From: a virus
IMG/VR virus record: IMGVR_UViG_3300032289_001724
Location: 1-30,120 of that record
Direction: 5' to 3' (one strand)
Length of the DNA stretch: 30,120 nucleotides
Shown here: positions 315 through 28,200 of the stretch, one piece after another
Layout of the letters: each line of letters opens with the position of its first letter
Position numbering within the stretch: position 1 is the first letter of the stretch
Made by a program: the position numbers and the translations under genes
The notes under the pieces: model-generated
Told to the model about the DNA's origin: nothing
Databases searched by the model: none
The model's input: only the letters and a program-made list of their open reading frames with translations

Positions 315-321
315 TATTTAT
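313..321 (+). promoter_or_regulatory. Candidate late promoter element (AATATTTAT) of the fibre gene
   Basis: The core ATATTTAT ends 34 nt before the fibre start at 356. The flank continues as CCGTAGCT. This is close to the flank of the copy before the sheath gene (15382), which continues CGGTAGGT. It is inferred from recurrence; no transcription data are available. Confidence 0.45.
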
Positions 322-355
322 CCGTAGCTGTTGGACAGTGAAAACAGTATAAACT

Positions 356-3300
356 ATGCCAAACGAATTCAAAGTCAAAAATGGCCTGCTTGTTAGCGGG
401 TCTGCTAATATTAATTCTTCAGGATCTGAGGTTTTTTCAGTAGATGGTACTGCAGGTCGTCTATTCCAAATTGACGACTCTTTATCTGGTTCGTTATTCT
501 CAGTTAATACAGCAGCTGGTCTTCCCGTAATCGAAGCTTTTTCAGATAATACAACACGCATTGGTCAATTCGGCCAAAAAGCGTTATTTGTCTCTCAATC
601 AAAAGTTGGTGTAGGCAAAGAAGCCTTACTAAATGGTACATTAGATGTTAGTGGCAGTCTTACTGTTACTGGTTCACTTTTAGCCCCAACTATAACTGGT
701 TCATTATTAGGTACTGCCTCTTTTGCAGTAACTGCCTCTTGGGCATTAACACCAGCTGGTACATCAGGTACTGCTGGATCATCAGGTACTTCCGGCGCAA
801 ATGGCTCCTCAGGAACTTCTGGTTCTAGTGGTACTGCTGGTACTAGTGGCAGTTCTGGTACTCGGGGATCAAGCGGTTCTTCAGGCACGTCAGGCGCTAA
901 CGGTGCTAATGGCACAAGTGGGTCTAGTGGAACATCAGGTGCTAATGGTACTTCAGGATCAAGTGGTACTTCAGGCGCAAATGGCACTTCAGGATCAAGC
1001 GGCACTTCAGGCGCAAATGGTACTTCAGGATCAAGCGGCACTTCAGGCGCAAATGGCGCAAATGGCACTTCAGGTTCTTCAGGTACATCTGGTTCAAGTG
1101 GAACATCAGGTACATCAGGTACATCAGGTACATCCGGAACAAGCGGATCATCAGGTACTTCTGGATCATCTGGCACTAGAGGTTCATCAGGATCATCTGG
1201 TTCTTCTGGTTCTTCAGGTACCTCAGGTGCAAATGGTGCTAATGGTACTTCTGGGTCTTCAGGAACAAGTGGAGTTAATGGTGCGAATGGTTCTTCAGGT
1301 ACCTCAGGTGCAAATGGTGCAAATGGCACTTCAGGAAGTTCAGGCACTTCAGGTGCAAATGGCGCTAATGGTACTTCTGGTTCTTCAGGTACATCAGGTG
1401 CAAATGGTGCGAATGGCACTTCAGGAAGTTCAGGCACTTCAGGTGCAAATGGCGCTAATGGTACTTCTGGTTCTTCAGGTACATCAGGTGCAAATGGTGC
1501 GAATGGTACATCTGGTTCTTCTGGAACAAGTGGAGCAGCAGGTGCTCCCGGTACTTCTGGATCAAGTGGTACTTCAGGCGCTGCGGGCGCTCCAGGTTCT
1601 TCAGGTACATCTGGCTCATCTGGTACTTCAGGTACTTCTGGCTCATCAGGTACTCGAGGATCAAGTGGTTCCTCAGGAACTAGTGGAGCAAATGGTGTAA
1701 ATGGTTCAAGCGGTACTTCAGGCGCAAATGGTGCTAATGGTTCATCTGGATCATCAGGTACTTCAGGAGCAAATGGCGCAAATGGTTCATCTGGTACTTC
1801 CGGATCATCTGGTACACGGGGATCATCAGGTACTTCAGGAGCAAATGGCGCCAATGGTTCTTCAGGAACAAGTGGAGCAGCAGGTTCTTCAGGTACATCT
1901 GGTTCAAGTGGTACTTCTGGTGCTAACGGAGCCAATGGTTCTTCAGGAACTTCAGGTGCAAGTGGTGCCCCCGGAACTAGTGGTTCAAGTGGAACATCAG
2001 GCACAGGATTTAATAGTATTAACAATGCATTAAACGGAAGAGTTTTAGTATCTAATGGTACTACTAATGCAGCAACTGCTTCTAGCTTTTTAGTTCTAGA
2101 TACAACTAATGGTAAATTAACTTCTGTATATAATTCAAATGCTACTGTCAATTATATTGATATATCTGCAGCTTCTGCAAATAGCACAAATGGATATAAT
2201 GTATTTATAGGTAATTCCCCAACTGCATTAGCTACAGGTGGTGGTGGGGATACTGCTAGTTTTAACTCAAGTCTAGGATTTGACACACTTCCTTCTCTAA
2301 CCACAGGGTTTTATAATGTAGCTGTAGGAGGTCAAGCAGGATTTGCTTTAACTTCAGGTAAAGGAAATACAGCAATAGGAGTAGGATCATTATTCTCAAT
2401 TAATGATGATAATGACAATTCAGCTTTAGGATATAATACTTTAGCAAATTTAACAACAGGAAATGGAAATATAGCAATAGGATATCAAGCCGGTAGATAT
2501 TTTGGAGCGGGAATTGGCTCTAACGCTTCTGCTTCTCAAGGTATTTATTTAGGATGGCAGGCTAGAGCTAGTGCAAATGGACAAACTAACGAAACAGTTA
2601 TAGGATATAATGTTGTAGGTAATGGCTCAAATAGTATTACATTAGGTAATACAAATATAACCAAAACAATACTTAGATCAGGTGTAGGCATAGGAACAAC
2701 AGCACCAACTACAGCTCTACATGCGGTAGGACAATTAAGATTAGAATCTTATACTACAACAACATCTTATGCAGGTACAGCAGTTGGCGTGTTAGCATTT
2801 GATGCTACCGGTAGTATTTTAACAATTGCTACACCAGGTAGTGGTAGTGGTTCACCTGGAGGTGCAAATACAAACATTCAATTTAATGATAGTAGTGCAT
2901 TTAGTGGTTCAGGAAATTTTACATTTACTAAAGCAACTAATACAGTTAAGATACAAGGTAGTGGATCTACTTTATTACATATAACAGGCAGTGCTGGTGA
3001 TTTATTTAGAGTAGTAGATAGTGGTTCTAATTTTCCTACTATAGCTACATTTTCATCTGGTAGTGTAAACGTATTAACTGTAACTACTTCATCTGTAATT
3101 GTAACAGGCTCATTTGCAATCACCACAGGCAGTAATATTGAATTTCAAGTTACTAACACAGGGGTTAAAATAGGAGATCTAACTACAGATACTCATACTG
3201 TAACAGGATCTTTTAATATAAGCGGAAGTCAAACTATAACAGGCTCATTTAATTTAAGTGGAAGTAATGTTCGAGGATTACCAGAACATATGATATTAGC

Positions 3301-3640
3301 CTTATCAGATGAATCATCTTCTGTTCTTACTGCAGGTAATTCTAAAGTAGTATTTAGAGCTCCATATGCAATGTATCTATATCAAATTCCAAGATCATCC
3401 GTTTCACAAAGTTCATCTTCAGGTTTAGTAACTGTAGATATAAATGAAAATGGTACTTCAATATTAGGTGCAAATAAACTTTCTATAGACGCAAACGAAA
3501 AGACAAGTACAACAGCTGCTACTGCTACTACACTAGCTGATAATTTAATTGCTGATGATGCTGAAATTACATTAGATATAGATTCAGCTGGTACTGGTGC
3601 TAGAGGATTAAAGGTAACTTTATATTATCAAAGAGTATAA
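356..3640 (+). CDS. Large collagen-like tail fibre / adhesin with YadA-like head
   Basis: This is a 1094-residue fibre protein. Residues 1-134 are a Ser/Gly-rich beta-type N-terminus with repeated VSGSL/VTGSL strands, probably the part that binds the tail. Residues 135-548 are 138 consecutive Gly-X-Y triplets, mostly GTS, GSS and GAN, with four GTR and three GAP. This implies a collagen-like triple helix, hence a trimer. Residues of about 665-775 contain repeats such as NTAIGVGSL, SALGYNTL and NIAIGYQAG, which resemble the YadA head repeats of trimeric autotransporters. GVGIGTTAPTTALHAVG follows. Residues of about 975-1094 form a C-terminal beta domain of a type common in phage structural proteins (VDINENGTSIL, then EITLDIDSAGTGARGLKVTL). 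No S74 chaperone domain is seen. Start: ATG at 356, after a candidate promoter. It is a likely receptor-binding or whisker protein and a plausible acceptor for the downstream glycan enzymes. Confidence 0.85.
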   Translation: MPNEFKVKNGLLVSGSANINSSGSEVFSVDGTAGRLFQIDDSLSGSLFSVNTAAGLPVIEAFSDNTTRIGQFGQKALFVSQSKVGVGKEALLNGTLDVSGSLTVTGSLLAPTITGSLLGTASFAVTASWALTPAGTSGTAGSSGTSGANGSSGTSGSSGTAGTSGSSGTRGSSGSSGTSGANGANGTSGSSGTSGANGTSGSSGTSGANGTSGSSGTSGANGTSGSSGTSGANGANGTSGSSGTSGSSGTSGTSGTSGTSGTSGSSGTSGSSGTRGSSGSSGSSGSSGTSGANGANGTSGSSGTSGVNGANGSSGTSGANGANGTSGSSGTSGANGANGTSGSSGTSGANGANGTSGSSGTSGANGANGTSGSSGTSGANGANGTSGSSGTSGAAGAPGTSGSSGTSGAAGAPGSSGTSGSSGTSGTSGSSGTRGSSGSSGTSGANGVNGSSGTSGANGANGSSGSSGTSGANGANGSSGTSGSSGTRGSSGTSGANGANGSSGTSGAAGSSGTSGSSGTSGANGANGSSGTSGASGAPGTSGSSGTSGTGFNSINNALNGRVLVSNGTTNAATASSFLVLDTTNGKLTSVYNSNATVNYIDISAASANSTNGYNVFIGNSPTALATGGGGDTASFNSSLGFDTLPSLTTGFYNVAVGGQAGFALTSGKGNTAIGVGSLFSINDDNDNSALGYNTLANLTTGNGNIAIGYQAGRYFGAGIGSNASASQGIYLGWQARASANGQTNETVIGYNVVGNGSNSITLGNTNITKTILRSGVGIGTTAPTTALHAVGQLRLESYTTTTSYAGTAVGVLAFDATGSILTIATPGSGSGSPGGANTNIQFNDSSAFSGSGNFTFTKATNTVKIQGSGSTLLHITGSAGDLFRVVDSGSNFPTIATFSSGSVNVLTVTTSSVIVTGSFAITTGSNIEFQVTNTGVKIGDLTTDTHTVTGSFNISGSQTITGSFNLSGSNVRGLPEHMILALSDESSSVLTAGNSKVVFRAPYAMYLYQIPRSSVSQSSSSGLVTVDINENGTSILGANKLSIDANEKTSTTAATATTLADNLIADDAEITLDIDSAGTGARGLKVTLYYQRV
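947..1054 (+). repeat. Three tandem 36-bp repeats in the collagen region
   Basis: Copies start at 947, 983 and 1019, each encoding GTSGSSGTSGAN. They differ only at a few synonymous third positions. The near identity stands out against the otherwise shuffled codon use and suggests recent duplication. Confidence 0.85.
1322..1501 (+). repeat. 90-bp tandem duplication in the collagen region
   Basis: Two essentially identical 90-base copies lie back to back (about 1322-1411 and 1412-1501). Similarity extends leftwards into a less perfect partial copy from about 1290. Each unit encodes ten Gly-X-Y triplets. It is a likely site of unequal recombination or replication slippage that changes shaft length. 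Confidence 0.8.
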
Positions 3641-5637: not shown

Positions 5638-5967
5638 ATGATAGAACTTACTTATAATTGGAATTTTAATCCACTAGAATCATATCCTACAGCATCCGGT
5701 CAAACAGATGTAGTATTTTTAATACATTGGCAAGTAGAAGCCATAACAGGATCATATAGTGCTCGTCAAATTGGAACTCAACCCGTTCAATACACTTCAG
5801 AGTCAGTATTTATTCCTTTTAATGAATTAACATTTGATACTGTTTATGGTTGGGTTACTTCCTCTATGGGAGAGGAATATTACAATAGTATAACTACTAG
5901 TCTAACCCAACAAATAGAAAACCAAATTAATCCACCAGTATTAATTCAACAAGCCCCGTGGCTATAA
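5638..5967 (+). CDS. Small phage protein, unknown, fibre-associated by position
   Basis: This gene encodes 109 residues with the N-terminal pattern LTYNWNFNPLESYPTASGQTD. It is followed by alternating beta strands (VVFLIHWQVEAITGSYS, FIPFNELTFDTVYGWV) and a C-terminal helix rich in Gln/Glu/Asn. There is no signal peptide or membrane segment, and I cannot assign a family. It is the first gene after a candidate promoter and is followed 10 nt later by another small gene and then the glycan cassette, so it likely shares their transcript. The position next to fibre and LamG-like genes suggests a minor virion component, without direct evidence. Confidence 0.75.
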   Translation: MIELTYNWNFNPLESYPTASGQTDVVFLIHWQVEAITGSYSARQIGTQPVQYTSESVFIPFNELTFDTVYGWVTSSMGEEYYNSITTSLTQQIENQINPPVLIQQAPWL

Positions 5968-6177: not shown

Positions 6178-8130
6178 ATGAAAGTTTTGTTTATAGCCCC
6201 TCACCTGTCAACAGGCGGAATGCCTCAGTACCTTTACAAACAAATGGAAGTTCTCTCTGAGAGCTGTGAAGTTTGGTGTATAGAATGGGATAATGTTACT
6301 GGTGGAGTATTAGTAGTTCAACGAAATCGCATTGTTAATTTATTAGGCAGTAGATTAATTACATTAGGGGAAAAAAGAGAAAATTTATTTTCTTTTATTA
6401 AAAACATAAACCCCGATGTAATCCACCTTCAGGAAATACCTGAGATGTTTATGCCTTACAATATTGCTTCAAGATTATATAATTTAGATAGAAAATATAC
6501 TATCATTGAAACATCACATGATTCTAGTTTTGACATAAACAATAAACTACATTTTCCAGATAGATTTGCAATGGTAAGTCAATATCAAGTTGATGCTTAC
6601 AAACCATTAGGTATTCCTTGTGATTTAGTAGAATATCCAATTGAATATCATAAACGCACTAAAACTAGAGAAGAACTATTAAACGAATTAGGATTAGATC
6701 CTGATAAAAAACACGTTATAACTGTTGGTTTATTTACACCAAGAAAAAATCAAGCTGAGGTTATTGAGTATTCTAAACAACTTCAAAACTATCCTATTCA
6801 ATTCCACTTTATTGGTAATCAAGCAGATAATTTCAAATATTATTGGGAACCATTAATGAAGGATTTTCCATCAAATTGTAAATGGTGGGGAGAACGAAGT
6901 GATGTTGATAAATTTTATCAAGCAGCTGATCTATTTTTGTTTACTTCTAGAGGATCTAATACAGATAAAGAAACAATGCCTTTAGTAATTAGAGAGGCAA
7001 TTAGTTGGCAAGTTCCTTCCTTAATCTATAATCTGGACGTATATTTAAATTACTTTGATAAACATAAAAATATTGAATATTTAGATTTTAAAAGTAAAGA
7101 AAATAATATTCAAAAAATAATAAATAAATTAAATACAAAACCAATGGCAAATTATAACATCTGGAGTAGATGGGATGCATCTGAGCAAAAAGTCTACTAT
7201 GGTACATCTGAAGACATAAATATTCCTATAATTATAACTTTAAGAGAATATCAATCAGATGGTGTATTGTGGTCTGGTGAGTATAATGCACTATATAAAA
7301 ATGCAGAATATTGGATGGTTCCTATAAATAAAGGCATGCATGATTATGAAAAAGATCCAAAATTTGGGGGGATAAAAATATGTATTTATAAAAAAGAAAA
7401 TAATGAGTTAATTTATGAATATCCTTATTTTCAAAAATTTGTAAATATTCCAAGAGTTTCTTTAAGTAATAGCATTCCTTATTATATAAATTATAAAGAA
7501 TTTTTTATTGAAGATAAATATAAAAAATATTTTAATAAAAAATTTGATAGTATAGTAGATGTTGGTGCAAATGTAGGAGTATTTACTGAATATTTAATTC
7601 AAAAAGAATTAAGTGAAAAAATCATTGCAGTAGAATGCGACAGCAAAGCATTAAAAGATTTAAAAAATAATTTTAAAAGAGAATATAGAGTAGAAATAAT
7701 TCCAAAAGCACTTAATTCTACAAATGATCCCATTACATTCTACCAATCAGAAGAAAATCCAATCATAAGCAGCACTATCCCCCCAGATAAATTAAAAAAT
7801 CACAATGCGGGAGTAAAAGGAAATGATAAAGTAGTTGTAGATACTATTACTATAAAAGATCTTGTAGATAAATTAGGTAATATAGATTTACTTAAGATTG
7901 ATATTGAAGGAGGAGAGTATGAAATTATTAAAAATGTAGATTCTTCTTTGTTCAAAAATATAAATAATATTTTAATTGAATGTCATTTTTTTGAAGAGGA
8001 TTATTTAGAAAAATATAATAATCTAGTTAGAAAATTATCTGATAATGGATATGAAGTTGAAGAATTTGTTAAAGATCAAGCTATTAAATATAAAGGAGGA
8101 AGTGAAGTAATATTCGCTACTAAAAAATAA
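6178..8130 (+). CDS. Bifunctional glycosyltransferase (GT4) - FkbM methyltransferase
   Basis: This gene encodes 650 residues. Residues 1 to about 330 form a GT-B glycosyltransferase of the GT4 type. The N-terminal strand MKVLFIAPHLSTGGMPQY is followed by the second-domain start HVITVGLFTPRKNQAEVI. The EX7E motif is at E265/E273 (ETMPLVIRE) and probably binds the sugar nucleotide. Residues of about 345-450 are a beta-rich linker with W and YWMVP. Residues of about 455-650 are an FkbM-family SAM-dependent O-methyltransferase: motif I is VDVGANVGVFT (from 460) and the family signature is DLLKIDIEGGEYEII (from 570). The protein probably adds a sugar and O-methylates a sugar of the same glycan in the cytoplasm. 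It is the first gene of a run with 2-6 nt spacings. Donor, acceptor and linkage cannot be read from the sequence. Confidence 0.85.
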   Translation: MKVLFIAPHLSTGGMPQYLYKQMEVLSESCEVWCIEWDNVTGGVLVVQRNRIVNLLGSRLITLGEKRENLFSFIKNINPDVIHLQEIPEMFMPYNIASRLYNLDRKYTIIETSHDSSFDINNKLHFPDRFAMVSQYQVDAYKPLGIPCDLVEYPIEYHKRTKTREELLNELGLDPDKKHVITVGLFTPRKNQAEVIEYSKQLQNYPIQFHFIGNQADNFKYYWEPLMKDFPSNCKWWGERSDVDKFYQAADLFLFTSRGSNTDKETMPLVIREAISWQVPSLIYNLDVYLNYFDKHKNIEYLDFKSKENNIQKIINKLNTKPMANYNIWSRWDASEQKVYYGTSEDINIPIIITLREYQSDGVLWSGEYNALYKNAEYWMVPINKGMHDYEKDPKFGGIKICIYKKENNELIYEYPYFQKFVNIPRVSLSNSIPYYINYKEFFIEDKYKKYFNKKFDSIVDVGANVGVFTEYLIQKELSEKIIAVECDSKALKDLKNNFKREYRVEIIPKALNSTNDPITFYQSEENPIISSTIPPDKLKNHNAGVKGNDKVVVDTITIKDLVDKLGNIDLLKIDIEGGEYEIIKNVDSSLFKNINNILIECHFFEEDYLEKYNNLVRKLSDNGYEVEEFVKDQAIKYKGGSEVIFATKK

Positions 8131-8133
8131 ATA

Positions 8134-9141
8134 ATGAAAGAAATAGTTATCTTATCTTGTTGGCCTAGTGATGAATATAGGGAAAAACTTTTAGTAGATT
8201 TAATTAACAAATTAAAAACACTAAATAAAGAAATACTAATAGCTTCACATCATGTTATTCCTTCCTATATAATTAATATGGTTGATTACTGTATATATGA
8301 TAAAACTAATACAATATATACAAATAAAACCCTAAAAACATACCCAGCAGACTATTATTTTAAGTGTGATTTATTTAGGATAGAAGCAATAAATATTGCT
8401 CATTCTGCTGCTCTTTCTAGAATTTTTAATATTGCTCTTAATTTTATCAAAAATTTAGAATATGATTATTTTACTATTCTAGAAGCAGATGCTGAATTTG
8501 ATATAAATGATTTAAAAAAATTAGATGATATAAAGGTAGATTTAGTAAAAAACAATAAAAAATTATTTTTTTTCAAATTAAGACCTTATGAATTTCCTTA
8601 TTGGGAAGATAATGGAATTTTTGAAGTATATGAAACTTTTTGTTTTGGGGGTTTTTTAAAAGAATTTAATTCTAAACTTACCTTTCCTAAAACGTTAGAT
8701 GAATGGAATCAAAATCTTTTAAAAGATAAAAATAACCATTTATTTGAATACATAGTAACAGAAGCCTTTAAAGAACATAAAAATAATTATGCAATCCTAG
8801 ACTCATCTAGAAATATTTTTACTAATTCTAAAACGAATACATCTACTATTATTAAATTAAATGGAGTATATATTAACCCTAAAGATATAAATACTCCAAT
8901 ATTATTTTTCCACAATGAATCAAATCAAACTAGAACATATAAAATACTTTCTCCTTTTTTACAAGAAGTTACTTTAGATCCTGATTATTGGTGGTTTAAT
9001 TATTTAAGTATGAGTGAACCTAACATTGATGTTAAGGTAGTTGTATATGAAGAAGATAAGATAATTGAAAGTTTTAATTCATTAATAGATAAAGAATGGA
9101 TTGATAGAGAAAAAAATAGAAGACAAATTTTATTCAAATAA
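8134..9141 (+). CDS. Putative glycosyltransferase (GT-A-like)
   Basis: This gene encodes 335 residues and starts 3 nt after the preceding stop. The N-terminus IVILSCWPSDEYREKLLVDL suggests a Rossmann-like nucleotide-sugar domain. A hydrophobic strand then ends in YFTILEADAEFDI, with D119 and acidic E117/E121 where GT-A enzymes have their DxD-type metal and nucleotide-sugar site. The classic D-x-D spacing is not exact, so activity is uncertain. The rest (FFFKLRPYEFPYWEDNG, FCFGGFLKEF) resembles the acceptor half of small GT-A enzymes. No membrane segment is seen. The operon position among sugar-modifying enzymes supports a role in building the same glycan. Confidence 0.6.
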   Translation: MKEIVILSCWPSDEYREKLLVDLINKLKTLNKEILIASHHVIPSYIINMVDYCIYDKTNTIYTNKTLKTYPADYYFKCDLFRIEAINIAHSAALSRIFNIALNFIKNLEYDYFTILEADAEFDINDLKKLDDIKVDLVKNNKKLFFFKLRPYEFPYWEDNGIFEVYETFCFGGFLKEFNSKLTFPKTLDEWNQNLLKDKNNHLFEYIVTEAFKEHKNNYAILDSSRNIFTNSKTNTSTIIKLNGVYINPKDINTPILFFHNESNQTRTYKILSPFLQEVTLDPDYWWFNYLSMSEPNIDVKVVVYEEDKIIESFNSLIDKEWIDREKNRRQILFK

Positions 9142-9147
9142 AAATAC

Positions 9148-10368
9148 ATGACTGTAAATCAATGCCCTATAACATATGATTCTGATAAATTTACCTATTT
9201 TAGTTTAGGTGATATGCCTTTAGTAAATAATTTATCTAATACAAAAGAAGAATCCTTTAATTGTATTAAATACCCATTAGAGGTTCAATATTTTTCTAAA
9301 AGTAAATTATCATGTCTTACATATAATGTGGACCCAAACCTAATGTTCTCAGATTATTCGTATAAATCTGGAGTATTAAAACCATATATAGAGCATTGTA
9401 AAGAGATGTTTTGGTTTGTTGATCACTATACTTTATTAAAAGAAGAAGATAATGTTTTAGATATTGGGGGAAATGATGGTACATTACTAAAAACTTTTTT
9501 AAAAGAAAAACCATTTTTACAAGTCTTAAATGTTGATGCTTCAGCTAATTTAACAAAATTAAGTAACCAACAAGGAGTACCATCAATTAATGCTTTTTGG
9601 GGAGTAGATACAGCTAAAAAAATAGATAAAAAGTTTAAATTAATTACATCTACAAATGTGTTTCAACATACTCCACCAATTGAAGACTATGTAGAGGCTA
9701 TATCAATAAGTTTAGATAAATTTGGAATATGGTGCTTAGAATTTCCTTATTGGAAAACAAATATGGAAACAAAACAATATGATCAAATTTATCATGAACA
9801 TGTTTATTATTATTTAATAGAACCATTAAAAACATTATTTGAAAAATATAATTTAAGGATTGTAAAAGCTGTTAAATATCCTATTCATGGAGGAAGTTTA
9901 CGACTATTAATTACTCATATTGGTGAGTTAGGAGAAGCATTTCAACCTTGTGATGGAGTTCAACAGTTAATTGAAGAAGAACAAAAAATTACTAAAGATT
10001 ATTATAAAGAATGGGGTAATGATATTAAAAATCATATTTTGAGTTGCAGAGAATTTTTAATATCTTTAAAACAACAAGGAAATAATATAGTAGGATTTGG
10101 AGCTGCCGCTAAAGGATGTATATTTTTAAATAGTGCTCAAATTGATTGTAATATATTAGATGTTGTTATAGATGATACTGATTTAAAACAAGATAAATAT
10201 ATACCCGGAACTGGTATACAAATTAAAAATAGGAATTACTTAAAAGAAAATAAAGTAGATTATATTTTAATATTAGCTCATAATTTTAAAGAAGAAATTA
10301 TAAACAATTTAAAAAATCACTATCAAGGTAAATACATTATTCTTTTCCCAGAAATACAAATTATATAA
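9148..10368 (+). CDS. Sugar C-methyltransferase family protein (class I SAM methyltransferase)
   Basis: This gene encodes 406 residues with the three-part architecture of NDP-hexose C-methyltransferases. The N-terminal part (about 1-80) keeps the spacing of the usual zinc-binding domain (FSLGDMPLVNN, then KYPLEVQ). Most of the expected paired cysteines are missing, so the metal site looks eroded. The SAM domain follows, with VLDIGGNDGTLL (from 103) and the family signature YHEH at 215-218, where the catalytic Tyr/Glu/His are expected, then IHGGSLRLL. The C-terminal domain has VGFGAAAKGCIFLNSA and the DDTDLKQDKYIPGTGIQI pattern. The known role of the family is C-methylation of a keto-sugar nucleotide when branched deoxysugars are made. 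It starts 6 nt after the preceding stop and ends 2 nt before the next gene. Confidence 0.85.
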   Translation: MTVNQCPITYDSDKFTYFSLGDMPLVNNLSNTKEESFNCIKYPLEVQYFSKSKLSCLTYNVDPNLMFSDYSYKSGVLKPYIEHCKEMFWFVDHYTLLKEEDNVLDIGGNDGTLLKTFLKEKPFLQVLNVDASANLTKLSNQQGVPSINAFWGVDTAKKIDKKFKLITSTNVFQHTPPIEDYVEAISISLDKFGIWCLEFPYWKTNMETKQYDQIYHEHVYYYLIEPLKTLFEKYNLRIVKAVKYPIHGGSLRLLITHIGELGEAFQPCDGVQQLIEEEQKITKDYYKEWGNDIKNHILSCREFLISLKQQGNNIVGFGAAAKGCIFLNSAQIDCNILDVVIDDTDLKQDKYIPGTGIQIKNRNYLKENKVDYILILAHNFKEEIINNLKNHYQGKYIILFPEIQII

Positions 10369-10370
10369 TT

Positions 10371-11201
10371 ATGGTTTTTTTCTTATACAGTAACAAAGCA
10401 TATGAACATCAAGCAATAGCTTGTATAAAATCCTTATCTAATAAGATAACAGATGATGTAAAAATAGTTTACTATACTATTGGATTTGACAGTGATTTTG
10501 AATTTAAAAATTTAACTAAGGTATATTTTCCTCTTAAAGATCAATATCCATCTTTTTACTATTATAAAGCAGAATTATCTTTACTTACAATGGATATGTT
10601 TCCTAATGAACATTATATGTTCTCTGATACAGATATATTATATTCTAGAAGATTTTCTTTTGATAATCTAAAACATGATTTACCATATCCTAAAGCTAGT
10701 TTTGGTCCTCATGAATATCCCTTTATGTGGGAATTAGATAATAATGGAGAAACAGTAATTCTTGATGAGACAAGATTAATGAATTATCTTAATGTTCCTG
10801 GAAGAACACAAAGATACGTTTGGTCATGTATGTATACTTTTAATTCTAATTGTAGAGATTTTTTTGAAGAATACACCTCATTATGTAATTATAAATACCT
10901 TTTAGATAAAAGATGGTATTATTATCCAATGCATGATGAAACTCCATTTAATATTTGTTTATGGAAAAGAAATGCCACTGAAAGTTTAGGATTTGCTTTT
11001 TTAAATACCCATTCACCAAGTGCTGTTAGATTAACTGAAGAAAATATTATTAAGGATCAAAATTTAAATAATCATTTTGATGCTAAAGGAAATAATTGGG
11101 AATATATTTATGATTCTGAACAAATCATTGCTTATCACGGATTTAAAGAAAAAAAAGGAATAGATGAAGCATTAAATTATCTATTAAATGGACATCAATA
11201 A
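10371..11201 (+). CDS. Putative GT-A glycosyltransferase with DxD motif
   Basis: This gene encodes 276 residues. The order of elements fits a GT-A glycosyltransferase. The N-terminal strand MVFFLYSNKAYEHQAIACI is followed by a second strand (VKIVYYTIGF), then MFSDTDILYSRRF with D86-T87-D88, a good DxD metal/nucleotide-sugar motif at the usual distance. Later come HDETPFNICLW and the final IIAYHGFKEKKG, a His near the C-terminus as in GT8-like enzymes. I do not assign a family. It sits in the middle of the glycan gene run, and its 3' end overlaps a 31-codon remnant in another frame. Confidence 0.65.
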   Translation: MVFFLYSNKAYEHQAIACIKSLSNKITDDVKIVYYTIGFDSDFEFKNLTKVYFPLKDQYPSFYYYKAELSLLTMDMFPNEHYMFSDTDILYSRRFSFDNLKHDLPYPKASFGPHEYPFMWELDNNGETVILDETRLMNYLNVPGRTQRYVWSCMYTFNSNCRDFFEEYTSLCNYKYLLDKRWYYYPMHDETPFNICLWKRNATESLGFAFLNTHSPSAVRLTEENIIKDQNLNNHFDAKGNNWEYIYDSEQIIAYHGFKEKKGIDEALNYLLNGHQ

Positions 11202-11283
11202 TCAAGGAATAATCATACAGGGATCTACAGATCTTTATCATAAAGAAATTGTTGATTTTTATTCTCAATTTAATAATAAATAA
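11188..11283 (+). pseudogene. Possible remnant N-terminus of a WavE-like glycosyltransferase gene
   Basis: A 31-codon open frame starts with ATG inside the end of the preceding gene (14-nt overlap, different frame) and ends with TAA 6 nt before the next gene. The product begins MDINNQGIIIQGSTDLYHKE. The pattern GIIIQG followed by a short helix resembles the start of WavE-type and related phage/LPS glycosyltransferases, where this strand opens the nucleotide-sugar domain. Such an enzyme needs about 250 residues or more, so this looks like a gene that lost its body by deletion. The alternative is a real micropeptide or plain spacer. The match is short, so confidence is modest. Confidence 0.4.
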
Positions 11284-11289
11284 AATAAA

Positions 11290-12225
11290 ATGAAATTATT
11301 AAATATAGGATTTGATAAAAGTGAATGTAAACTATATTTTGAATGTAACACAGCAGACGTTAAAATTAGTAATTGTAGTATTGTAATATCTGATTTACAT
11401 TTAGATTGCGCTTATTATACTTGGGATAATTTAACAATTTCTAATACTTTTAATTGTTGGGTAATTCCTCTTGGCACAAAATTAGTAAATACAGTTTTAC
11501 AAAATAATAAATTTCCTGGTTTTTGTGTTAAAGTGTATGGCCCTAATAAGCGATTGCTACAAATTGATAAATTTATAATGAATAATGTTGATCCTTTAGT
11601 AAAAAGACCATATAGTACTCCTACACATGACGATGTTGGACCATCATATGTTGACTTTTTCTTTGGTGATTTGTGTGCAGGAATGGATACAAAAGGTGTT
11701 GTAATAGATGCAGGTGCTAATGTAGGATTTTTTACCTTATTTGCTAAAGAAAATGGAGCTACAAGAGTATATAGTATAGAACCTGACCCTTTACCTTACA
11801 ATTTTTTAGAATCCAATTACAAACATGACCCTTCAGTTATTACTATAAATAAGGTGTTAAGCCATAAAAATGAACCTGTTGATTTTAATATAGTATTAAT
11901 AAATTCAGTAGGTAGTGTTATGAGTGAATATAGAATAAAAGATGATAATGTTTTTTCTGCCAAAATAGATTCAATATCTTTACATAATATATTAAATATA
12001 GAACCAACAATCAATCTTTTAAAATTAGATATTGAGGGAGCGGAATATGATGTATTAGATAATTTAGACAGTAGTTACTTTAAAAATATAAATCAATTCT
12101 TTATTGAATTTCATAAAGATCCTAAACCAATTTTTAATAGACTTGTTAATGAAGGGTATCAAGTAGAATATAGACATTCAAATGAAAATGATATTGCTGG
12201 TTTTATATACGCTAAAAAAATATGA
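11290..12225 (+). CDS. FkbM-family SAM-dependent methyltransferase with N-terminal beta domain
   Basis: This gene encodes 311 residues. Residues 1 to about 105 are a beta-rich domain (YYTWDNLTISN, NCWVIPLGTK, CVKVYGPNKRLLQ). Its layout resembles the linker before the FkbM part of the protein at 6178. Residues of about 130-311 are the FkbM methyltransferase: motif I VVIDAGANVGFFTLF (from 138), acidic SAM-ribose contact IEPD, and the signature NLLKLDIEGAEYDVL (from 242). The closing DSSYFKNINQFFIEFH closely matches DSSLFKNINNILIECH in the 6178 protein, so the two are probably paralogues. The expected role is O-methylation of a sugar hydroxyl. It stops with TGA, unusual here, inside an ATGA overlap with the next start, so translation is likely coupled. 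Confidence 0.85.
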   Translation: MKLLNIGFDKSECKLYFECNTADVKISNCSIVISDLHLDCAYYTWDNLTISNTFNCWVIPLGTKLVNTVLQNNKFPGFCVKVYGPNKRLLQIDKFIMNNVDPLVKRPYSTPTHDDVGPSYVDFFFGDLCAGMDTKGVVIDAGANVGFFTLFAKENGATRVYSIEPDPLPYNFLESNYKHDPSVITINKVLSHKNEPVDFNIVLINSVGSVMSEYRIKDDNVFSAKIDSISLHNILNIEPTINLLKLDIEGAEYDVLDNLDSSYFKNINQFFIEFHKDPKPIFNRLVNEGYQVEYRHSNENDIAGFIYAKKI

Positions 12226-14312
12226 AGATAATTAATGTTACGCCGGGTTTACTTCCAATTCCTCCTAATGGGTGGGGTGCTGTAGAAAAAATAATTTGGG
12301 AGACACATAATGCTCTATTAGAATTAGGTCATGATTCTCAAATTCAATATTTAAATGAAGTAGAAGATTATGATATTGTTCATATTCATGTTGCTAATTT
12401 AGCTAATATGGCACATGAACGAGGTATTCCTTATTATTTTACTATGCATGACCATCATGCTTATTTGTATGGTAAAGAATCTCAAGTATATAAAGAAAAT
12501 TTACAAGCAATAAAAAATGCTAAAAAAGCATTTGTACCTGCTAAATTTTTAGTTGATTATTTTGAAGGAATACCTGAATATTTTTCCCACGGAGTTAATA
12601 CTGATTATTTTACTCCTAGTGGAATTAAAGAACATAAGTTATTATGTGTAGCTAATAATGGTTTTATTCATAATCAAGCTGAAGATAGAAAAGGATTTGG
12701 ATATGCTATTGAAGCAGCTAAACAACTTAATTTACCAATTACAATAGCAGGCCCTAATAATAACAAAAATTATTTTGATACATTCCCCCCAGATTATGAT
12801 AAGCTTACTATTCTTTATGATTTAAATGAAGAACAATTAAGGGATTTATATAAAGAACATAGTATATTTGTACATGCTTCTATTTTGGAGGCAGGACATC
12901 CTAACTTAACTTTACTTGAAGCATTAGCTTCAGGATTACCCATAGTAGGTACTTTTGAAGATAATAATAACTTAGAAGGATTATTAAAGATAGATAGAGA
13001 TGTAAATCAAATAAAACAAAAAATTAAATATTTAATTTCTAATCCAATAGTTCATTTAAAATATTCTAAAAGAGCTAAACAACAGGCTTTAGAATTATCT
13101 TGGAAAAACAGAGTAAAAGATTTATTAGGTAAATACGAAATTAGTATGAAAGATCAATTAATATCAATTTATAAAACTGAAAGATTGAATAAACCCTCAA
13201 AACCAAATACACCTAGGTTTAACATTAATTTTATTAATGGTCCTTTTGTTGAAATATTAAATTCACCGTATAAAAACCATATAGTAAAATTTATAAATAA
13301 AAATACTGGTGGAATAGAATATTCCCAAAAAGTAGGAAGTGACTGTTGGGTTAGAGCAGGTAAACAATATTTTATTGATTGGAAAATAAAAGTAGAAGAT
13401 GAAAATGGAAATACAATATTTGAGCATGACTACAATGCTGAAGGTAAAAAAGTGTATATTGCTTTAGATTCAAAATCACTAGGTGATACACTAGCCTGGT
13501 TTCCATATGTAGACGAATTTAGAAAAAAACATAACTGCAAAATAGTTTGCTCCACATTCCATAACCATCTATTCCAAAACCAATACCCAGAAATTGAATT
13601 TATTAGACCTGGAGAAACAGCAAATGGGTTATACGCTATGTATACTGTAGGATGGTTTTATTTTGCTGATGGTAAGATGGATTTAAATAAAAATGTATCT
13701 GATTTTAGATGTATACCTTTACAACAAACATCGTCTGATATTTTAGGATTAAAATTTAAAGAAGTTATACCTAAATTAAAAAAATCATTAGCAGCTAAAA
13801 AGAAACAAATATCAATCGCAATTCATGGCACAGCACAAGCTAAATATTGGAATAACATAGACGGATGGCAAAAAATTGTTGATTGGTGTTCTAATAAAGG
13901 ATATGAAGTATTTTTATTATCTAAAGAAGAAGATGGATATATGGGTAATATTCATCCTAAAGGAATAAAATACCTTAATTCATATGATTTAGATAATACC
14001 ATAAAAACACTACATGAGTCAGAATTATTTATTGGTATCAGTAGTGGATTAAGTTGGTTAAGTTGGGCAACTAACACTCCAACAATTGTCATTTCTGGAT
14101 TTACAGAGCCATATACTGAACCAGAAAGTTGTTATCACCTTGATGCACCACAAGATAAATGTAGGGGATGTTTTAATTCACACCAATTAGATGCAGGAGA
14201 TTGGAATTGGTGCCCAGTACATAAAGGAACAAATCGCCAATTTGAATGTTCTAAATCAATAACTTCTGAAATGGTAATAAAAAAGTTGAGAGAAATTTTG
14301 GTTGTTTCCTAA
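12222..14312 (+). CDS. GT4 glycosyltransferase fused to TibC/Aah-type (BAHT) O-heptosyltransferase
   Basis: This gene encodes 696 residues. Residues 1 to about 320 are a GT4-type GT-B enzyme (IINVTPGLLPIPPNGWGAVE; DIVHIHVAN; donor-site region EAGHPNLTLLEALASGLPIV from E223). From residue 334 a second complete enzyme begins, matching the autotransporter strand-loop-strand O-heptosyltransferase family (TibC, Aah; GT9-like). It shows NFINGPFVEI, KQYFIDWKIKV, IALDSKSLGDTLAWFPYVDE, FRCIPLQQTSSDILG and HGTAQAKYWNNIDGWQ. It also has the four-cysteine cluster C647-x2-C650-x13-C664-x11-C676, placed like the iron-binding finger of TibC. Known members transfer heptose to Ser/Thr hydroxyls of autotransporter adhesins. 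Here it probably primes glycan addition on a protein, with the GT4 half adding another sugar. It overlaps the previous gene by 4 nt (ATGA). Confidence 0.85.
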   Translation: MKIINVTPGLLPIPPNGWGAVEKIIWETHNALLELGHDSQIQYLNEVEDYDIVHIHVANLANMAHERGIPYYFTMHDHHAYLYGKESQVYKENLQAIKNAKKAFVPAKFLVDYFEGIPEYFSHGVNTDYFTPSGIKEHKLLCVANNGFIHNQAEDRKGFGYAIEAAKQLNLPITIAGPNNNKNYFDTFPPDYDKLTILYDLNEEQLRDLYKEHSIFVHASILEAGHPNLTLLEALASGLPIVGTFEDNNNLEGLLKIDRDVNQIKQKIKYLISNPIVHLKYSKRAKQQALELSWKNRVKDLLGKYEISMKDQLISIYKTERLNKPSKPNTPRFNINFINGPFVEILNSPYKNHIVKFINKNTGGIEYSQKVGSDCWVRAGKQYFIDWKIKVEDENGNTIFEHDYNAEGKKVYIALDSKSLGDTLAWFPYVDEFRKKHNCKIVCSTFHNHLFQNQYPEIEFIRPGETANGLYAMYTVGWFYFADGKMDLNKNVSDFRCIPLQQTSSDILGLKFKEVIPKLKKSLAAKKKQISIAIHGTAQAKYWNNIDGWQKIVDWCSNKGYEVFLLSKEEDGYMGNIHPKGIKYLNSYDLDNTIKTLHESELFIGISSGLSWLSWATNTPTIVISGFTEPYTEPESCYHLDAPQDKCRGCFNSHQLDAGDWNWCPVHKGTNRQFECSKSITSEMVIKKLREILVVS

Positions 14313-15433: not shown

Positions 15434-17143
15434 ATGGCAGAAGCAATTTTATCTCCTGGTGTATTCCAAAATGAATCAGACCAATCGCTGGTTCAAAGAG
15501 GCATTGTAGGTTCAGCAACAGCTATTGTTGGTCCAACTGTGTTGGGTCAACCATACATTCCTACCTATGTTACTTCATATAGCGAATACGTAGCAAAATT
15601 CGGAGAAACGTTTAAAAGTGGTAGTTATTACTACGAATATCTTACATCATTAGCCGCTAAAGATTTCTTCCAAAACGGTGGTCAAACATTATTAGTTACT
15701 AGAATTATCAGTGGTTCAGCTAATTACGGTTTATATGCAAGTTCATCTGTAGGTGATTACGCAGCTTCCGCTAATTCATTTGTACTTGAAACATTAGCTT
15801 GGGGTAACCAAATGAATAGTGCAGGTGGTACTGAAGTTAGTGGTGCTTTACCAAACGGAACTATAGCTAATGTTCGTTGGGAAATTATCAATGTAAACAC
15901 AGGAAGTGGTACCTTTAGTTTAGGTATCCGTGCTGGTAATGATAATAATGCTCAAAAGAATTACTTAGAAACATGGCCTAATTTATCATTAGATCCAATG
16001 TTACCTAACTTTATTTCTCGTGTAATTGGTGACCTAAAACCAGTATACGACGCTACAAATAATGTTATTAACTATACAGGCTCTTATACAAATGCATCTC
16101 AGTTTGTTCGTGTTAAATCTATAACTACTCCACAAGTAGATTCTATTGATAATAATGGTATTTATAAAGCTACTCAATACAGTGGTAGCCTACCAGCATT
16201 AGGAAGTGGATCATTTGGTGGTGCAGTAGCTGCAACAGGTGCTGAACAAAAAATGAATGAAACTATCACAGCTACTAATATTCAAGGATTTGGTAATGAT
16301 GATTATACAGAAGCTTTCCAATTATTAGCAAACCAAGACGAATTTAGATTTAATGTATTATTAGCTCCTGGTTTAACTCTTGATACAACAGGTAACGCAG
16401 TGTCAACTATGATTTCTACTTGTGAAGGTAGAGGTGATGCAATTGCAGTTATTGATACTAAATTATATGGTGCTACTGTAGCAAGTGCTGCTACTGCTGC
16501 TCAAGGTCAATCAAGTAACTATGCAGCTACTTACTATCCTTGGATTCAATTATATTCAAGTGGAACTGGTAAGGCAGTTTGGGCTCCACCTTCAACTGTA
16601 ATGGGTGGTGTATTTGCATTCAACGACCAAGTTGGTGCTGAATGGTTTGCTCCTGCAGGTTTAAACCGTGGTGGTGTTCCTTCAGTATTACGTGCTGAAA
16701 GAAAATTATCTCAAGCAAATCGTGATACATTATACGAAGCAAATGTTAATCCATTAGCTACATTCCCTGGTGAAGGTGTTGTAGTATTTGGTCAGAAAAC
16801 ATTGCAGAAAAAACAAACAGCACTTGATCGTGTAAATGTTCGTCGTTTGTTGATTGCATTGAAAAATTATATAGGTCAAGTAGGTAATAACTTGGTATTT
16901 GAACAAAATACAAATGTAACTCGTAACAGATTCTTATCTCAAGTTAATCCATATCTTGAATCAGTAGTACAACGTCAAGGTTTATATGCTTACAAGGTAG
17001 TAATGGATGATACCAATAATACACCTGATGTAATCGATAGAAACCAATTAGTAGGTCAGATCTATATCCAACCAACTAAGACTGCTGAATTCATTATCTT
17101 GAATTTTAACGTACAACCAACTGGAGCTTCATTCCCTGCATAG
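15434..17143 (+). CDS. Contractile tail sheath protein (T4 gp18-like)
   Basis: This gene encodes 569 residues and forms the contractile outer tail layer. Family features are as follows. The N-terminal arm MAEAILSPGVFQNESDQSL is followed by the first beta domain (IVGSATAIVGPTVLGQPYIP, YVAKFG) and AAKDFFQNGGQTLLVTRI. The variable middle comes next, then the conserved C-terminal domain. In that domain are VVFGQKTLQKK, ALDRVNVRRLLIALKNYIGQ and QNTNVTRNRFLSQVNPYLES, and finally VIDRNQLVGQIYIQPTKTAE before a last beta strand that links neighbouring subunits. Length is somewhat shorter than T4 gp18. The start ATG 15434 gives the canonical N-terminus. It is directly followed by the tube gene, the usual myovirus order. 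Its stop codon (TAG) lies inside a hairpin. Confidence 0.95.
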   Translation: MAEAILSPGVFQNESDQSLVQRGIVGSATAIVGPTVLGQPYIPTYVTSYSEYVAKFGETFKSGSYYYEYLTSLAAKDFFQNGGQTLLVTRIISGSANYGLYASSSVGDYAASANSFVLETLAWGNQMNSAGGTEVSGALPNGTIANVRWEIINVNTGSGTFSLGIRAGNDNNAQKNYLETWPNLSLDPMLPNFISRVIGDLKPVYDATNNVINYTGSYTNASQFVRVKSITTPQVDSIDNNGIYKATQYSGSLPALGSGSFGGAVAATGAEQKMNETITATNIQGFGNDDYTEAFQLLANQDEFRFNVLLAPGLTLDTTGNAVSTMISTCEGRGDAIAVIDTKLYGATVASAATAAQGQSSNYAATYYPWIQLYSSGTGKAVWAPPSTVMGGVFAFNDQVGAEWFAPAGLNRGGVPSVLRAERKLSQANRDTLYEANVNPLATFPGEGVVVFGQKTLQKKQTALDRVNVRRLLIALKNYIGQVGNNLVFEQNTNVTRNRFLSQVNPYLESVVQRQGLYAYKVVMDDTNNTPDVIDRNQLVGQIYIQPTKTAEFIILNFNVQPTGASFPA

Positions 17144-17191: not shown

Positions 17192-17677
17192 ATGGCAGTA
17201 TTAGACGCTAACGAAATCATGTTTACCGCTTTTGAACCTAAGGTTCAGAATAGGTTCATCATGTACATAGATGGTATCCCGGCTTATTTGATTAAGGCTG
17301 CATCTGCACCTGGATTCGAAGCTGGTGAAATTATATTAGACCACATTAACGTTTACCGTAAAGTAAAAGGTAAAGTTAGATGGAATGATATGACATTAAG
17401 CTTATACGATCCTGTAACCCCATCTGGTGCACAAGCAGTAATGGAGTGGGCTCGTTTAGCACACGAATCAGTAACTGGTCGTGATGGATATTCAGATTTC
17501 TATAAGAAAGACTTAACATTAGATATTTTAGGACCAGTGGGTGATGTTGTTGGTGAGTGGATTATAAAAGGTGCTTATTGTAAAACAGCTACATTCGGTG
17601 AATACGATTGGGCAAACGAAGCAGCAATTAATCTTTCAGTAACAATCGCGATGGATTATTGTGTACTCAACTTCTAA
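17192..17677 (+). CDS. Tail tube protein (T4 gp19-like)
   Basis: This gene encodes 161 residues, the size typical of T4 gp19-type tube proteins, which stack as rings to form the inner tail tube. Characteristic elements are the N-terminal NRFIMYIDGIPAYLIKAASA and the loop GEIILDHINVYRKVKGKVRW. These are followed by MTLSLYDPVTPSGAQAVMEW, then LTLDILGPVGDVVGEWIIKG and a closing amphipathic strand (INLSVTIAMDYCVLNF). It lies directly after the sheath gene, as in most contractile-tailed phages. It has its own candidate promoter and is followed by a strong terminator, so it can be transcribed alone at high level. Confidence 0.95.
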   Translation: MAVLDANEIMFTAFEPKVQNRFIMYIDGIPAYLIKAASAPGFEAGEIILDHINVYRKVKGKVRWNDMTLSLYDPVTPSGAQAVMEWARLAHESVTGRDGYSDFYKKDLTLDILGPVGDVVGEWIIKGAYCKTATFGEYDWANEAAINLSVTIAMDYCVLNF

Positions 17678-17766: not shown

Positions 17767-18510
17767 ATGGCAGAATTAAAAATCCCAACAGAAACAGTTA
17801 CATTGCCCTCAAAAGGTTTATTGTATCCTGAGACATCACCACTAGCTAAAGGTGAAATTGAAATGAAGTATATGACAGCAAAGGAAGAAGATATTCTTAC
17901 CAATGCTAATTATCTTAGAAATGGAACAGTAATTGATAAATTACTTCAATCACTAATTGTTACACCAATTAATTACAATGAATTATTAATTGGCGATAAG
18001 AATGCAATATTAATTGCAGCTCGTATTTTAGGTTATGGTAAGGATTATCAATTTAGATACAATAATAGAGAATATACAGCTGATTTATCTACATTAGAAG
18101 ATAAAATAGTAGATACATCATTATTTAAACGTGGATTAAATGAATTTTCATTTTCACTCCCACATTCAGGAAATAGTGTTACTTTTAAACTGTTAACACA
18201 TGGTGACGAACAAAAAATTGATGCTGAAATTAAGGGAATGCAAAAAATCAACCCAAATGTTACAGCAGATGTTACTACACGTTTGAAACACATGATTACA
18301 TCTATTGAAGGAAAACGTGATCAAAAGGATATTCGTGATTTTGTTGATAATTATCTTATTGCCAAAGACGCTAGAGCATTACGTGAATTCTACAATAAAA
18401 TATCCCCAGATATCAATTTAACCTATATTCCACAGGATGAAGACTATACAGGGGAGGGTATAGCGATACCACTATCTCTTGACTTTTTTTGGCCTGACGC
18501 CGGAGTATAG
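17767..18510 (+). CDS. T4 gp26-like baseplate hub assembly / tail-assembly chaperone
   Basis: This gene encodes 247 residues. The N-terminus (LKIPTETVTLPSKGLLYPET, then IEMKYMTAKEEDILTNANYL) and the following VIDKLLQSLI and LLIGDKNAILIAARILGYG are typical of T4 gp26-type baseplate proteins of myoviruses. A beta region (FSFSLPHSGNSVTFKLLT) and a helical C-terminal part follow. It lies between tube and tape measure, which is where tail-assembly chaperones (the G/GT position of lambda) are encoded. Near its end is a run of seven T (18484-18490), after which a second frame stays open for 90 codons. This frame probably stops six codons past the slip site, while a minority of ribosomes would make a longer product. 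It probably acts during tape-measure and tail assembly. Confidence 0.8.
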   Translation: MAELKIPTETVTLPSKGLLYPETSPLAKGEIEMKYMTAKEEDILTNANYLRNGTVIDKLLQSLIVTPINYNELLIGDKNAILIAARILGYGKDYQFRYNNREYTADLSTLEDKIVDTSLFKRGLNEFSFSLPHSGNSVTFKLLTHGDEQKIDAEIKGMQKINPNVTADVTTRLKHMITSIEGKRDQKDIRDFVDNYLIAKDARALREFYNKISPDINLTYIPQDEDYTGEGIAIPLSLDFFWPDAGV

Positions 18511-25241: not shown

Positions 25242-28200
25242 ATGTCTATATTTAAAGAAACGTTTAAAGATGGAGTTAAAAATCAACTAAAAGCTAGACA
25301 AGAAGCTATAGTTGAACGCACCCCTAGTGCTATCCAGTATTTTAATTCACGTAATGCATGGGTAAGAATGACTTCTGCTGTTGATGTAGGAGGTAGTGGA
25401 GAATTATCAAAAAATTATGTTTTATTAGGAGGTACTTTACTTAATGGTAAATTAAGATCCGGAATAGGAGCATCAGGAGCCTATAGTGTTAATTCTCCTG
25501 GAGGAGTTACACATCGTTTAGGAATTCGCTCAATGCCTGGTATTACAAGTATTGATATTAAATCAAAATCTGCTTATGGCTCATTAAGAGAAATAGTTGT
25601 AAATTTTAACGCTTGGGATTTAAGACAGCTTGAAGAATTAGAAATACTCTACATGCGCCCCGGATACTCAGTATTAGTAGAATGGGGATGGACACCTTAT
25701 TTAAATAATAGTAAAAAATTAAGCAATGATATCCAGTTTGTAGATGATGTTTTGAATGGAGGGCAAATAACTAAAGAACAAATATGGGAAAAAATATATA
25801 ATAAGTCTGCTGATAATGGCAATTATGATGCTATATATGGATTTATAAAAAATTATAGCTGGTCAGCTAGAGCAGATGGTGGATATGATTGTAGTACTAC
25901 TCTTATTACAATGGGAGAAATTCTTGAATCTTTAAAGGTTAACTATGGTCCTTATGTAGATAAAGCTCCTACTGAAAGTATATTTGGCAAATTAGATGCT
26001 TCATATTTTAAAAAAGAGGATATTACTTCAAAAGCATATAACCAAAATATAATTGCAGGTATATGTAGTGAATTATATCTTACTTTACTTAATATAGAAG
26101 GAATAAGTAATAATGAAGATAAAGTATTTAACGGGTGGAATTTTTATAGATTTGATATAGATATAAAAGGTAAAGATGAAGGGAATACTATTACAAGTAA
26201 AGGAGCTCAAATTTATATTACTTTAAAAGGTTTTGTTGATATTTTAAATAAACATGTTTTAATTGCTGACAAAAAAGCTAAAAAACCATTATTAGAACTT
26301 TCTGTATTTTGTGGAAATCATAATGGAGGTACAACTACTCCTCTTACCTGCTTAGGTGATATTCAACAATTATCAACAGATCCATCAATATGCCAAATTA
26401 AAAATACAAATTGGACTGACCCAAAAACTAATTTAGGAATAGATATTAGTGCTCCTAATCTTGTTACTTTAAAATTAATAATGGAAACTTTATCCCAAAA
26501 TTATTGGTATAAGGATGATTATGTTAATCAACAGTTAGGAATTATAGGAAATATCTATGTAAATTTAGATTATATTTACTCATTAGTAACAAATCCCAGC
26601 GTAGAAGCACAAGATAAAAAAGAAAAAAACGATGTTTCTTTATTTGATTTTATTAAAACCATGATGAGTGGAATTAATACTTCTATAGGAAATGTAGCAA
26701 ACTTTGAATTATTCGTAGACCCAGTAGATTCTGTAGCAAGAATAATAGACGTAAATTATACTGGTAATAGAACAGAAGATTGGGAAAAGGCTGTTATTAT
26801 AGAGTTACAAAAATTAGGATCTGTAGTTAGATCATATAAATTAGAATCCCAAATCTTTCCAGAACAATCTACTATAATTGCTATCGGAGCTCAAGCACAA
26901 GGAGGAGCATTAGGAGAAGATGTTAATACTTTAGTTGATTTTAATCAAAATTTAATAGATAGAATAGTACCTGTAAAACAATCTCCTCTATATAAAGGAG
27001 AACCAAAATCAGCAGAAGATATAAAGAAAGAAAATGAAGAAAAAGAAAAAATAAGAAAAGAAAATTTATCTGTTTTAATTGATTATATAAGTAAAATAGA
27101 CCCCGATTTTTGGGAGTTTAAAGGTGATTTCGACCCAGGTGAAGGTTCAAAATATTCTAATGCATTAAAAGATCAGATTAATTATTACAGAAGTAATACT
27201 AAAACGGATAATAAAAATAGAGCTATTATTCCTACTAAATTATCTCTCGAAATGGATGGCATAGGAGGAATAATAATTGGTAATATTTTTAGAATTCCTG
27301 ATGAAATATTACCTCGTGGGTATAAAGGGGGAGGAGGAGTAGGTCCTTCTAAAATAGGATATGCAGTTACTGGTATAGGACATTCAATTCAAAATAATGA
27401 TTGGATTACTAGACTAGATGCTCAATTTATAATATTAGATGAACCTAAAGGAGGAATATCTACAGCTGATGCTAAAGCTATTAAAGCAGGAAATAAAGCA
27501 ATAACACCTGAAGGAAATGGCGTTAAAAGAGTAGTAGAAAAAATAGTAGAAATAGTAAAAACAAAATATAAAGCTCCTAGTAGTGCTGCAATAAGGAAAA
27601 ATCTTGATGAGATTGAAAAAGAATGCATTAAACAAGGCATTACTAATAAATTTACAATAATTGCTATTAAAGCAAATATTTTAAAAGAAACAGGAGGGGT
27701 TCCTCGAAATGAAGACATAAAAGGATATGGCAAAACAGCAATTGCTAGAATTAGAAACATATTTGGAGGTAGAGTTGCCAAATTAAGTGATTCTGAACTT
27801 AGAGCAGCTAGCCTAAACCCAGTAGAATTTGGTGAATATATTTACGGTACCAAATCAGGAGCTATAGGAAAAGCTTTTGGAAATACTACTTATGGAGATG
27901 GATATAAATATAGAGGAAGAAGTTACATAGGTATAACAGGAAAAGCCCAATATGCCCAATATTCAAAAGACCTAGGTAAAGATTTCATAAATAATCCAGA
28001 CAGTATGAATACTCCAGAAAATGCAGCTGCTACTACTGTGTTATATCTTAAAAAAACTCTCCCAAATATGTCAAGAAGATTAAAAATAGATTATAGAAAT
28101 CCTTCAAGTCAAGAAGATGCTAATTTACTTGTTACAAGTGCTATTGCTGGAAAAGCTTTAGTAAGGCCACCAAAAGCAGTTATATTCCAAGAGATTTTAG

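Follow-up and report, generated by a model that had tools for sequence, protein, structure and literature searches.

A phage-encoded GT4–TibC-type fusion enzyme and its linkage with Ser/Thr-rich collagen-like proteins

Introduction

The BAHT enzymes TibC and Aah (TIGR04414; PDB 4RAP, 4RB4) have been a speciality of Gram-negative autotransporter adhesins, and the known acceptors of TibC are beta-strand repeats. Here we describe a relative encoded in a 30,120-base virus record with contractile-tail genes (IMG/VR record IMGVR_UViG_3300032289_001724, positions 1 to 30,120; this whole stretch is hereafter the window), where it forms the C-terminal domain of a fusion protein of 696 amino acids (aa; 12222–14312, + strand) that begins with a GT4 glycosyltransferase. 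The domain shares with TibC and Aah the fold, including the N-terminal beta-barrel, the Asp, the Lys, the hydrophobic thumb tip and the four-cysteine finger, and with AAH also a Ser in the donor site. It differs in its identity of ~30% to these enzymes, in being phage-encoded and fused to GT4, and in its surroundings, which show a Ser/Thr-rich collagen-like fibre where TibC and Aah have autotransporter partners. We consider it likely that the enzyme O-glycosylates this nearly Pro-free fibre of the phage itself, not an autotransporter adhesin.

To our knowledge, glycosylation of the collagen-like proteins of Bacillus (BclA), C. difficile (BclA1) and mimivirus uses other glycosyltransferase families. 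These systems place sugar on Gly-X-Y proteins of the particle or spore surface (cited in PMC8968730), as we propose here, whereas the window repeats are G-[ST]-[ST] and nearly without Pro; the same review attributes hydration effects to the BclA sugars. The GT4-type enzymes SdgA and SdgB of Staphylococcus modify Ser in the long, simple repeats of Ser-Asp repeat adhesins, a likeness to the GT4 half that extends to the fold only. We know of no TibC-type domain in that system. In the host-recognition regions of pelagimyophages glycosyltransferases lie near tail fibre genes, as in the window, and the available part of that source (PMC7029224) describes no TibC-type enzyme or collagen link, unlike what is seen here. 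A literature search found no work that connects phages with enzymes of the TibC type or with their glycosylation of collagen, which is weak evidence given that subscription papers were mostly uncovered.

Results

The reading frame at 12222–14312 is uninterrupted, and its ATG start shares four bases with the preceding FkbM gene. Residues 349–692 matched TIGR04414 (hepto_Aah_TibC) over profile positions 25–374 of 374 (282.6 bits, E = 4.3e-84; curated cut-off 200 bits), and phmmer aligned residues 356–685 with TibC (4rap; E = 9.5e-53). Two AlphaFold models were obtained (mean predicted local distance difference test score, pLDDT, 75.6 and 87.2), the second from a different, better alignment and with two well-formed domains around a disordered linker at ~313–327; we annotate the flexible linker at residues 313–328 (13158–13205, +; pLDDT mostly <50). 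Alignment of the first model with VIA-align placed residues 330–696 (13209–14309, +) on TibC 21–390, beta-barrel included (Z 39.9, root-mean-square deviation 2.5 Å, 357 residues), and the second model gave Z 39.2. In the predicted structure, a TibC fold of beta-barrel and GT-B-like catalytic domain, the N-terminal barrel has eight strands (residues 332–415). By sequence, fold and active site, the C-terminal domain belongs to the TIGR04414 enzyme family. An LPS (lipopolysaccharide) heptosyltransferase identity of the WaaC/WaaF type was rejected; these enzymes are fold kin, yet score far below TibC.

The N-terminal half (residues 1–312; 12222–13157, +) is of GT4 type by profile and fold, and is presumably active as such. 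It exceeded the cut-offs of PF00534 (37.1 bits, cut-off 26.4), PF13692 and PF13524, phrog_33732 (glycosyltransferase) matched residues 1–318, and its predicted GT-B/GT4 structure superposed on BshA with Z 27.2 (294 residues, 2.6 Å), a value of ~27 being reached with several other GT4 enzymes as well. A functional likeness to SdgB was dropped, as its Z of 24.3 was equalled or exceeded by many GT4 enzymes. The motif E223-x9-E233 (EAGHPNLTLLE) replaces the usual E-x7-E, which is common in GT4 enzymes and not universal, and the longer spacing is kept in the fusions seen. The initial annotation, made from the window's letters without database searches, had described a GT4 enzyme fused to a full TibC/Aah-like domain with an intact iron finger in a late gene cluster of a phage. 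Profile searches and structure comparison bear out both halves, the finger cysteines have their counterparts in TibC, and the gene sits in a phage tail-gene region.

Key residues were compared using the TibC numbering of PMC4358343. The stretch LDSKSLGDTLAWFPY begins at residue 415; D422 aligned with the catalytic base D110 of TibC and K541 with the sugar-binding K230. C647, C650, C664 and C676 correspond, by alignment, to the iron-finger Cys339, 342, 358 and 370. The TibC dodecamer assembles via its beta-hairpin thumb, with Phe265, Val266 and Phe368 (PMC4358343), positions kept in kind here as Y573, M574 and F674; a dodecamer, if formed here, would have to leave room for the fused GT4. S607 occupies the stereoselectivity position of TibC P300 and equals Ser294 of AAH; TibC P300S accepts ADP-D,D- and ADP-L,D-heptose alike, and AAH carries Ser there (PMC4358343). 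Among dereplicated homologues, 83 in number, both Asp and Lys were invariant (83/83), the four cysteines were present in 82, and the P300 position held Gly in 50, Ser in 27 and Pro in 3. The single exception for the cysteines, a TibC-type protein in a Pacearchaeota metagenome-assembled genome (MAG; L540, 997–3348), lacks all four of them and has the catalytic Asp and Lys; it would represent a naturally iron-free form, should the alignment hold.

Upstream of the fusion gene lies the proposed acceptor, missed in the initial annotation: a tail-fibre-like protein of 1094 aa (356–3640, +; PF01391 Collagen, 196.8 bits). Residues 135–551 (758–2008, +) form a collagen-like segment of 139 Gly-X-Y triplets without interruption, among them 51 GTS, 42 GSS and 30 GAN, with 194 Ser/Thr and 3 Pro at the X and Y positions; 'TGSFNISGS' beta-strand repeats flank it. 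A 518-aa frame antisense to the collagen repeat (595–2151, −), with EVPEEP-type repeats, is an artefact and not for annotation. A related phage contig (L106) with sheath and tube proteins 78% and 82% identical to those of the window offers a paired comparison. Its fibre of 332 aa matches that of the window with 81% identity in the first 116 residues and has a similar C-terminus; it lacks the collagen segment together with some of the middle, and its fibre-to-sheath interval is without the entire glycosyltransferase block of the window, such that collagen segment and transferase block are either both present or both absent in this pair.

In phages as in bacteria, the TibC-type enzyme proved to be in tight and specific genetic linkage with collagen-like proteins rich in Ser/Thr. 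Linkage was examined in both directions, using a DNA pattern for (G[ST][ST])3G as the repeat test. Among 43 viral contigs chosen solely for (GTS/GxS)4 DNA, 20 carried TIGR04414 (19 above the cut-off), against 1 of 45 random contigs, that contig being also the sole repeat carrier of the 45. The enzyme occurred in 2 of 38 contigs with Pro/Gln-type collagen, and long G[ST][ST] arrays were confined to one of these two (451 matches). Conversely, repeats were found in 31 of 49 enzyme-bearing records and in none of 39 controls without the enzyme, whose sheath proteins are 70–85% identical to that of the window (Fisher p = 2e-11; the other p among the linkage tests was 4e-8; both overstate certainty, the contigs being related and not independent samples). 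When enzymes were clustered at 90% identity, repeats were present in all 15 clusters with at least one contig of at least 50 kb, and in 6 of 17 clusters represented by shorter pieces alone. Collagen segments were mostly absent within 8 kb of stand-alone viral enzymes. These enzymes were considered as a counter-example, which was rejected after a whole-record search found arrays farther off or contigs that were too short.

With the enzyme sequence as the sole query, 84,980 species genomes yielded 16 cellular loci. Of these, 14 have repeats within 9 kb of the enzyme, and in 8 the distance is below 1 kb; the reversed pattern, as a control, gave 0/16. Across the whole genomes, 1–9 Mb in size, most arrays, among the matches listed, were on the contig of the enzyme; Methylobacter and Methylomicrobium carry further arrays elsewhere. 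In Methylobacter sp. BlB1 (L536) a 293-aa collagen-like protein (PF01391), judged by inspection to have a probable signal peptide, is followed after 40 bp by the 432-aa enzyme, amid housekeeping genes resembling dnaK, miaB, phoH, ybeY and galE, in an ordinary chromosome. Three further loci (L538, L545 and L546) resemble this plan, and two from archaeal MAGs (L541 and L547) look like viral contigs. TIGR04414 exceeded its cut-off in 2 of 369 Gammaproteobacteria genomes, both among those already found. These cellular loci are independent of the phage lineage of the window and provide the strongest argument for the repeat as the substrate. No strand-loop-strand autotransporter was recognised in the 30-kb window, from an incomplete phage genome, or in the six cellular neighbourhoods listed, where neighbours were partly profile-scanned; a collagen-like protein was present instead. 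Two loci also encode, near the enzyme, proteins in which (GSS)n repeats and an acidic tail come after a lipoprotein-like or Tat-like leader (L545, 6796–8003, −; L546, 6905–7495, −), a possible further class of acceptors.

Among viruses, a contig scan with the C-terminal domain as query confirmed 304 stretches, a spread among phages that the initial annotation had also missed; the best 80 were surveyed for architecture. These comprised stand-alone enzymes of ~385 aa and GT4 fusions of two types, one like that of the window and the other in L015 and L017. A methyltransferase fusion of 910 aa (L023) and a 762-aa protein without a Pfam match in its N-terminal part (L018) were also among them. The full fusion occurred at 41% identity in two 735-kb phage records, and in the isolate Microcystis phage Mel-JY01 the TibC-type domain ends a 1227-aa protein; Mel-JY01 and the 735-kb phage LR756501 each carry both enzyme and repeats. 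The initial annotation had suggested two-step priming and extension on a new acceptor. A new acceptor is likely, and the co-occurrence tests single out Ser/Thr-rich collagen-like repeats as the candidate. GT4 fusions are common, other fusions occur and many enzymes stand alone, a pattern from which the two-step order does not follow.

Several viral records had further features. The Mel-JY01 record (L409, PP395634.1) has a 1016-aa collagen-like frame at 2–3052, open at the record start, with 149 triplets in one run, and annotates across it a minus-strand 'hypothetical protein' (739–2298) that is probably an antisense artefact of repeat DNA. A 'cytidylyltransferase' near the Mel-JY01 enzyme was considered as HldE and rejected, the match being a weak nucleotidyltransferase one. 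Two divergent TibC-type enzymes (3–1115 and 7268–8455) lie 6 kb apart in one phage contig (L043), and another (L283) has a second, shorter copy. In L295 (G123) the TIGR04414 match contains seven in-frame TGA codons, and TGA may encode an amino acid in this phage.

Discussion

We favour the fibre over an autotransporter as the acceptor because the TibC-like half travels with Ser/Thr-rich collagen-like proteins both in viruses and in the 16 cellular loci. We infer the glycosylation itself, together with which sugar is used, in what order the two transferases act and what benefit results, as follows. The TibC-type domain would act in the cytoplasm of the infected cell, placing a sugar on many Ser/Thr of the G-[ST]-[ST] triplets before or during trimerisation of the fibre. 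The donor would most likely be heptose from the ADP-heptose pool of the host, and the fused GT4, the neighbouring glycosyltransferases, and the FkbM and C-methyltransferases may extend and cap the glycan. The occurrence of GT4 fusions in many lineages fits successive, coupled steps on one glycan, with their order and the GT4 activity both putative. Glycosylation of Thr can lend stability to collagen triple helices without hydroxyproline (Hyp), and the benefit could be stability or shielding of a collagen-like rod without Pro or Hyp, or an altered adhesion surface.

Alteration of host surface structures is the usual proposal for glycosyltransferases of phage host-recognition regions, published for those in pelagimyophage tail regions (PMC7029224), and the enzyme might likewise modify an LPS O-chain, capsule or host adhesin and so block superinfection. 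The fold kinship with the LPS heptosyltransferases WaaC and WaaF (Z 18–19) points the same way, but the TIGR04414 score far exceeds that of heptosyltransferase I (282.6 against 27.9 bits), and modification of the host surface would explain neither the association of the enzyme with Ser/Thr-rich collagen repeats in phages nor its position in bacterial chromosomes next to a secreted collagen-like protein; we regard it as unlikely. About equally improbable is modification of some other Ser/Thr-rich part of the fibre or of a neighbour, such as the 'TGSFNISGS' repeats or the LamG-like protein, with the collagen segment merely co-travelling. Such repeats resemble the known acceptors of TibC and flank the segment, yet L106 has beta repeats and a LamG-like neighbour and no enzyme, and the Methylobacter partner has a collagen repeat without TGSF-type repeats. 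That the domain is an inactive decoy, serving as scaffold or binding module, would accord with the E-x9-E spacing in the GT4 half; the near-complete retention of Asp, Lys and cysteines over widely diverged proteins would hardly be expected if function were not under selection and makes this highly improbable.

A sugar other than heptose on the same collagen-like segment is a sub-question compatible with glycosylation of the fibre, and we think it somewhat unlikely. Relatives of the enzyme occur in archaeal MAGs, two of these contigs being viral-looking, and such hosts are not known to make LPS; most homologues, moreover, have Gly at the TibC Pro300 position. Searching 50 enzyme-bearing viral records for GmhA (PF13580) returned none, so that the donor either comes from the host or is not heptose; ADP-heptose made by the phage, considered as a source, was left without support by the same result. 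The full-length TIGR04414 match, Ser607 as in AAH, and the invariant catalytic Asp and sugar-site Lys speak for heptose, and Gram-negative hosts usually make ADP-heptose.

Several points weigh against glycosylation of the fibre as set out above. Linkage is no proof of substrate, since both the repeats and the enzyme might be markers of one lifestyle. As an acceptor, a collagen-like chain differs greatly from the beta-helix autotransporter that TibC recognises via its iron finger and ring. No enzyme was seen in about half of the contigs with repeats, these being fragments or having other enzymes, and the relatedness of the contigs is addressed in part by the cluster count and the cellular loci. 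The Gly at the donor-selectivity position in 50 of 83 homologues and the absence of GmhA count on the same side.

If the fibre is the acceptor, both an enzyme and a candidate acceptor can be named for phage-fibre glycosylation, and the TibC family would change from an autotransporter-adhesin speciality to a common tool of phages and bacteria with collagen-like proteins. The NCBI name 'autotransporter strand-loop-strand O-heptosyltransferase' is probably wrong on the acceptor for the whole branch. The stability of collagen-like rods without Pro or Hyp becomes testable, and a route to recombinant collagens glycosylated by enzyme is possible. More tentatively, TibC-type enzymes, often joined to GT4 or another module, may form an undescribed and widespread protein-glycosylation system of aquatic phages and bacteria, and possibly of archaeal viruses. 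They would hyperglycosylate collagen-like proteins that are rich in Ser/Thr and nearly Pro-free, and the sugar would stabilise these as hydroxyproline does animal collagen.

Gene neighbourhood of the window

The fusion gene ends a cluster that begins with a 650-aa GT4–FkbM methyltransferase fusion (6178–8130, +; profile matches). This is followed by a 335-aa protein (8134–9141, +) and, after a sugar C-methyltransferase (9148–10368, +; PF08484/PF13489), by a protein of 276 aa (10371–11201, +); neither had a library match, and their motifs, EADAEF and a DxD (FSDTDI), respectively, suggest GT-A enzymes. The FkbM methyltransferase (11290–12225, +; TIGR01444, 82.9 bits) precedes the fusion gene. 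GC content is 23–28% across most of this glycosylation block (6178–14312) compared to ~32–36% in the downstream sheath and tube genes, in line with an insertion of foreign DNA. Upstream, a DUF7936 protein (5638–5967, +) serves as a boundary marker, lying ~1.3–2.6 kb upstream of the sheath gene in several cluster-less relatives. Downstream are the tail sheath (15434–17143, +; phrog_23, 250 bits), which was used to choose the related control phages, the tail tube (17192–17677), a baseplate-hub-like protein (17767–18510) and an endolysin-like protein (25242–28244). Near the right end, a 428-aa open reading frame (28784–30070) had no match in Pfam, PHROG or NCBIfam, and its residues FDKFIELDFQGYHPRLIGELVEW look polymerase-like in our own reading.

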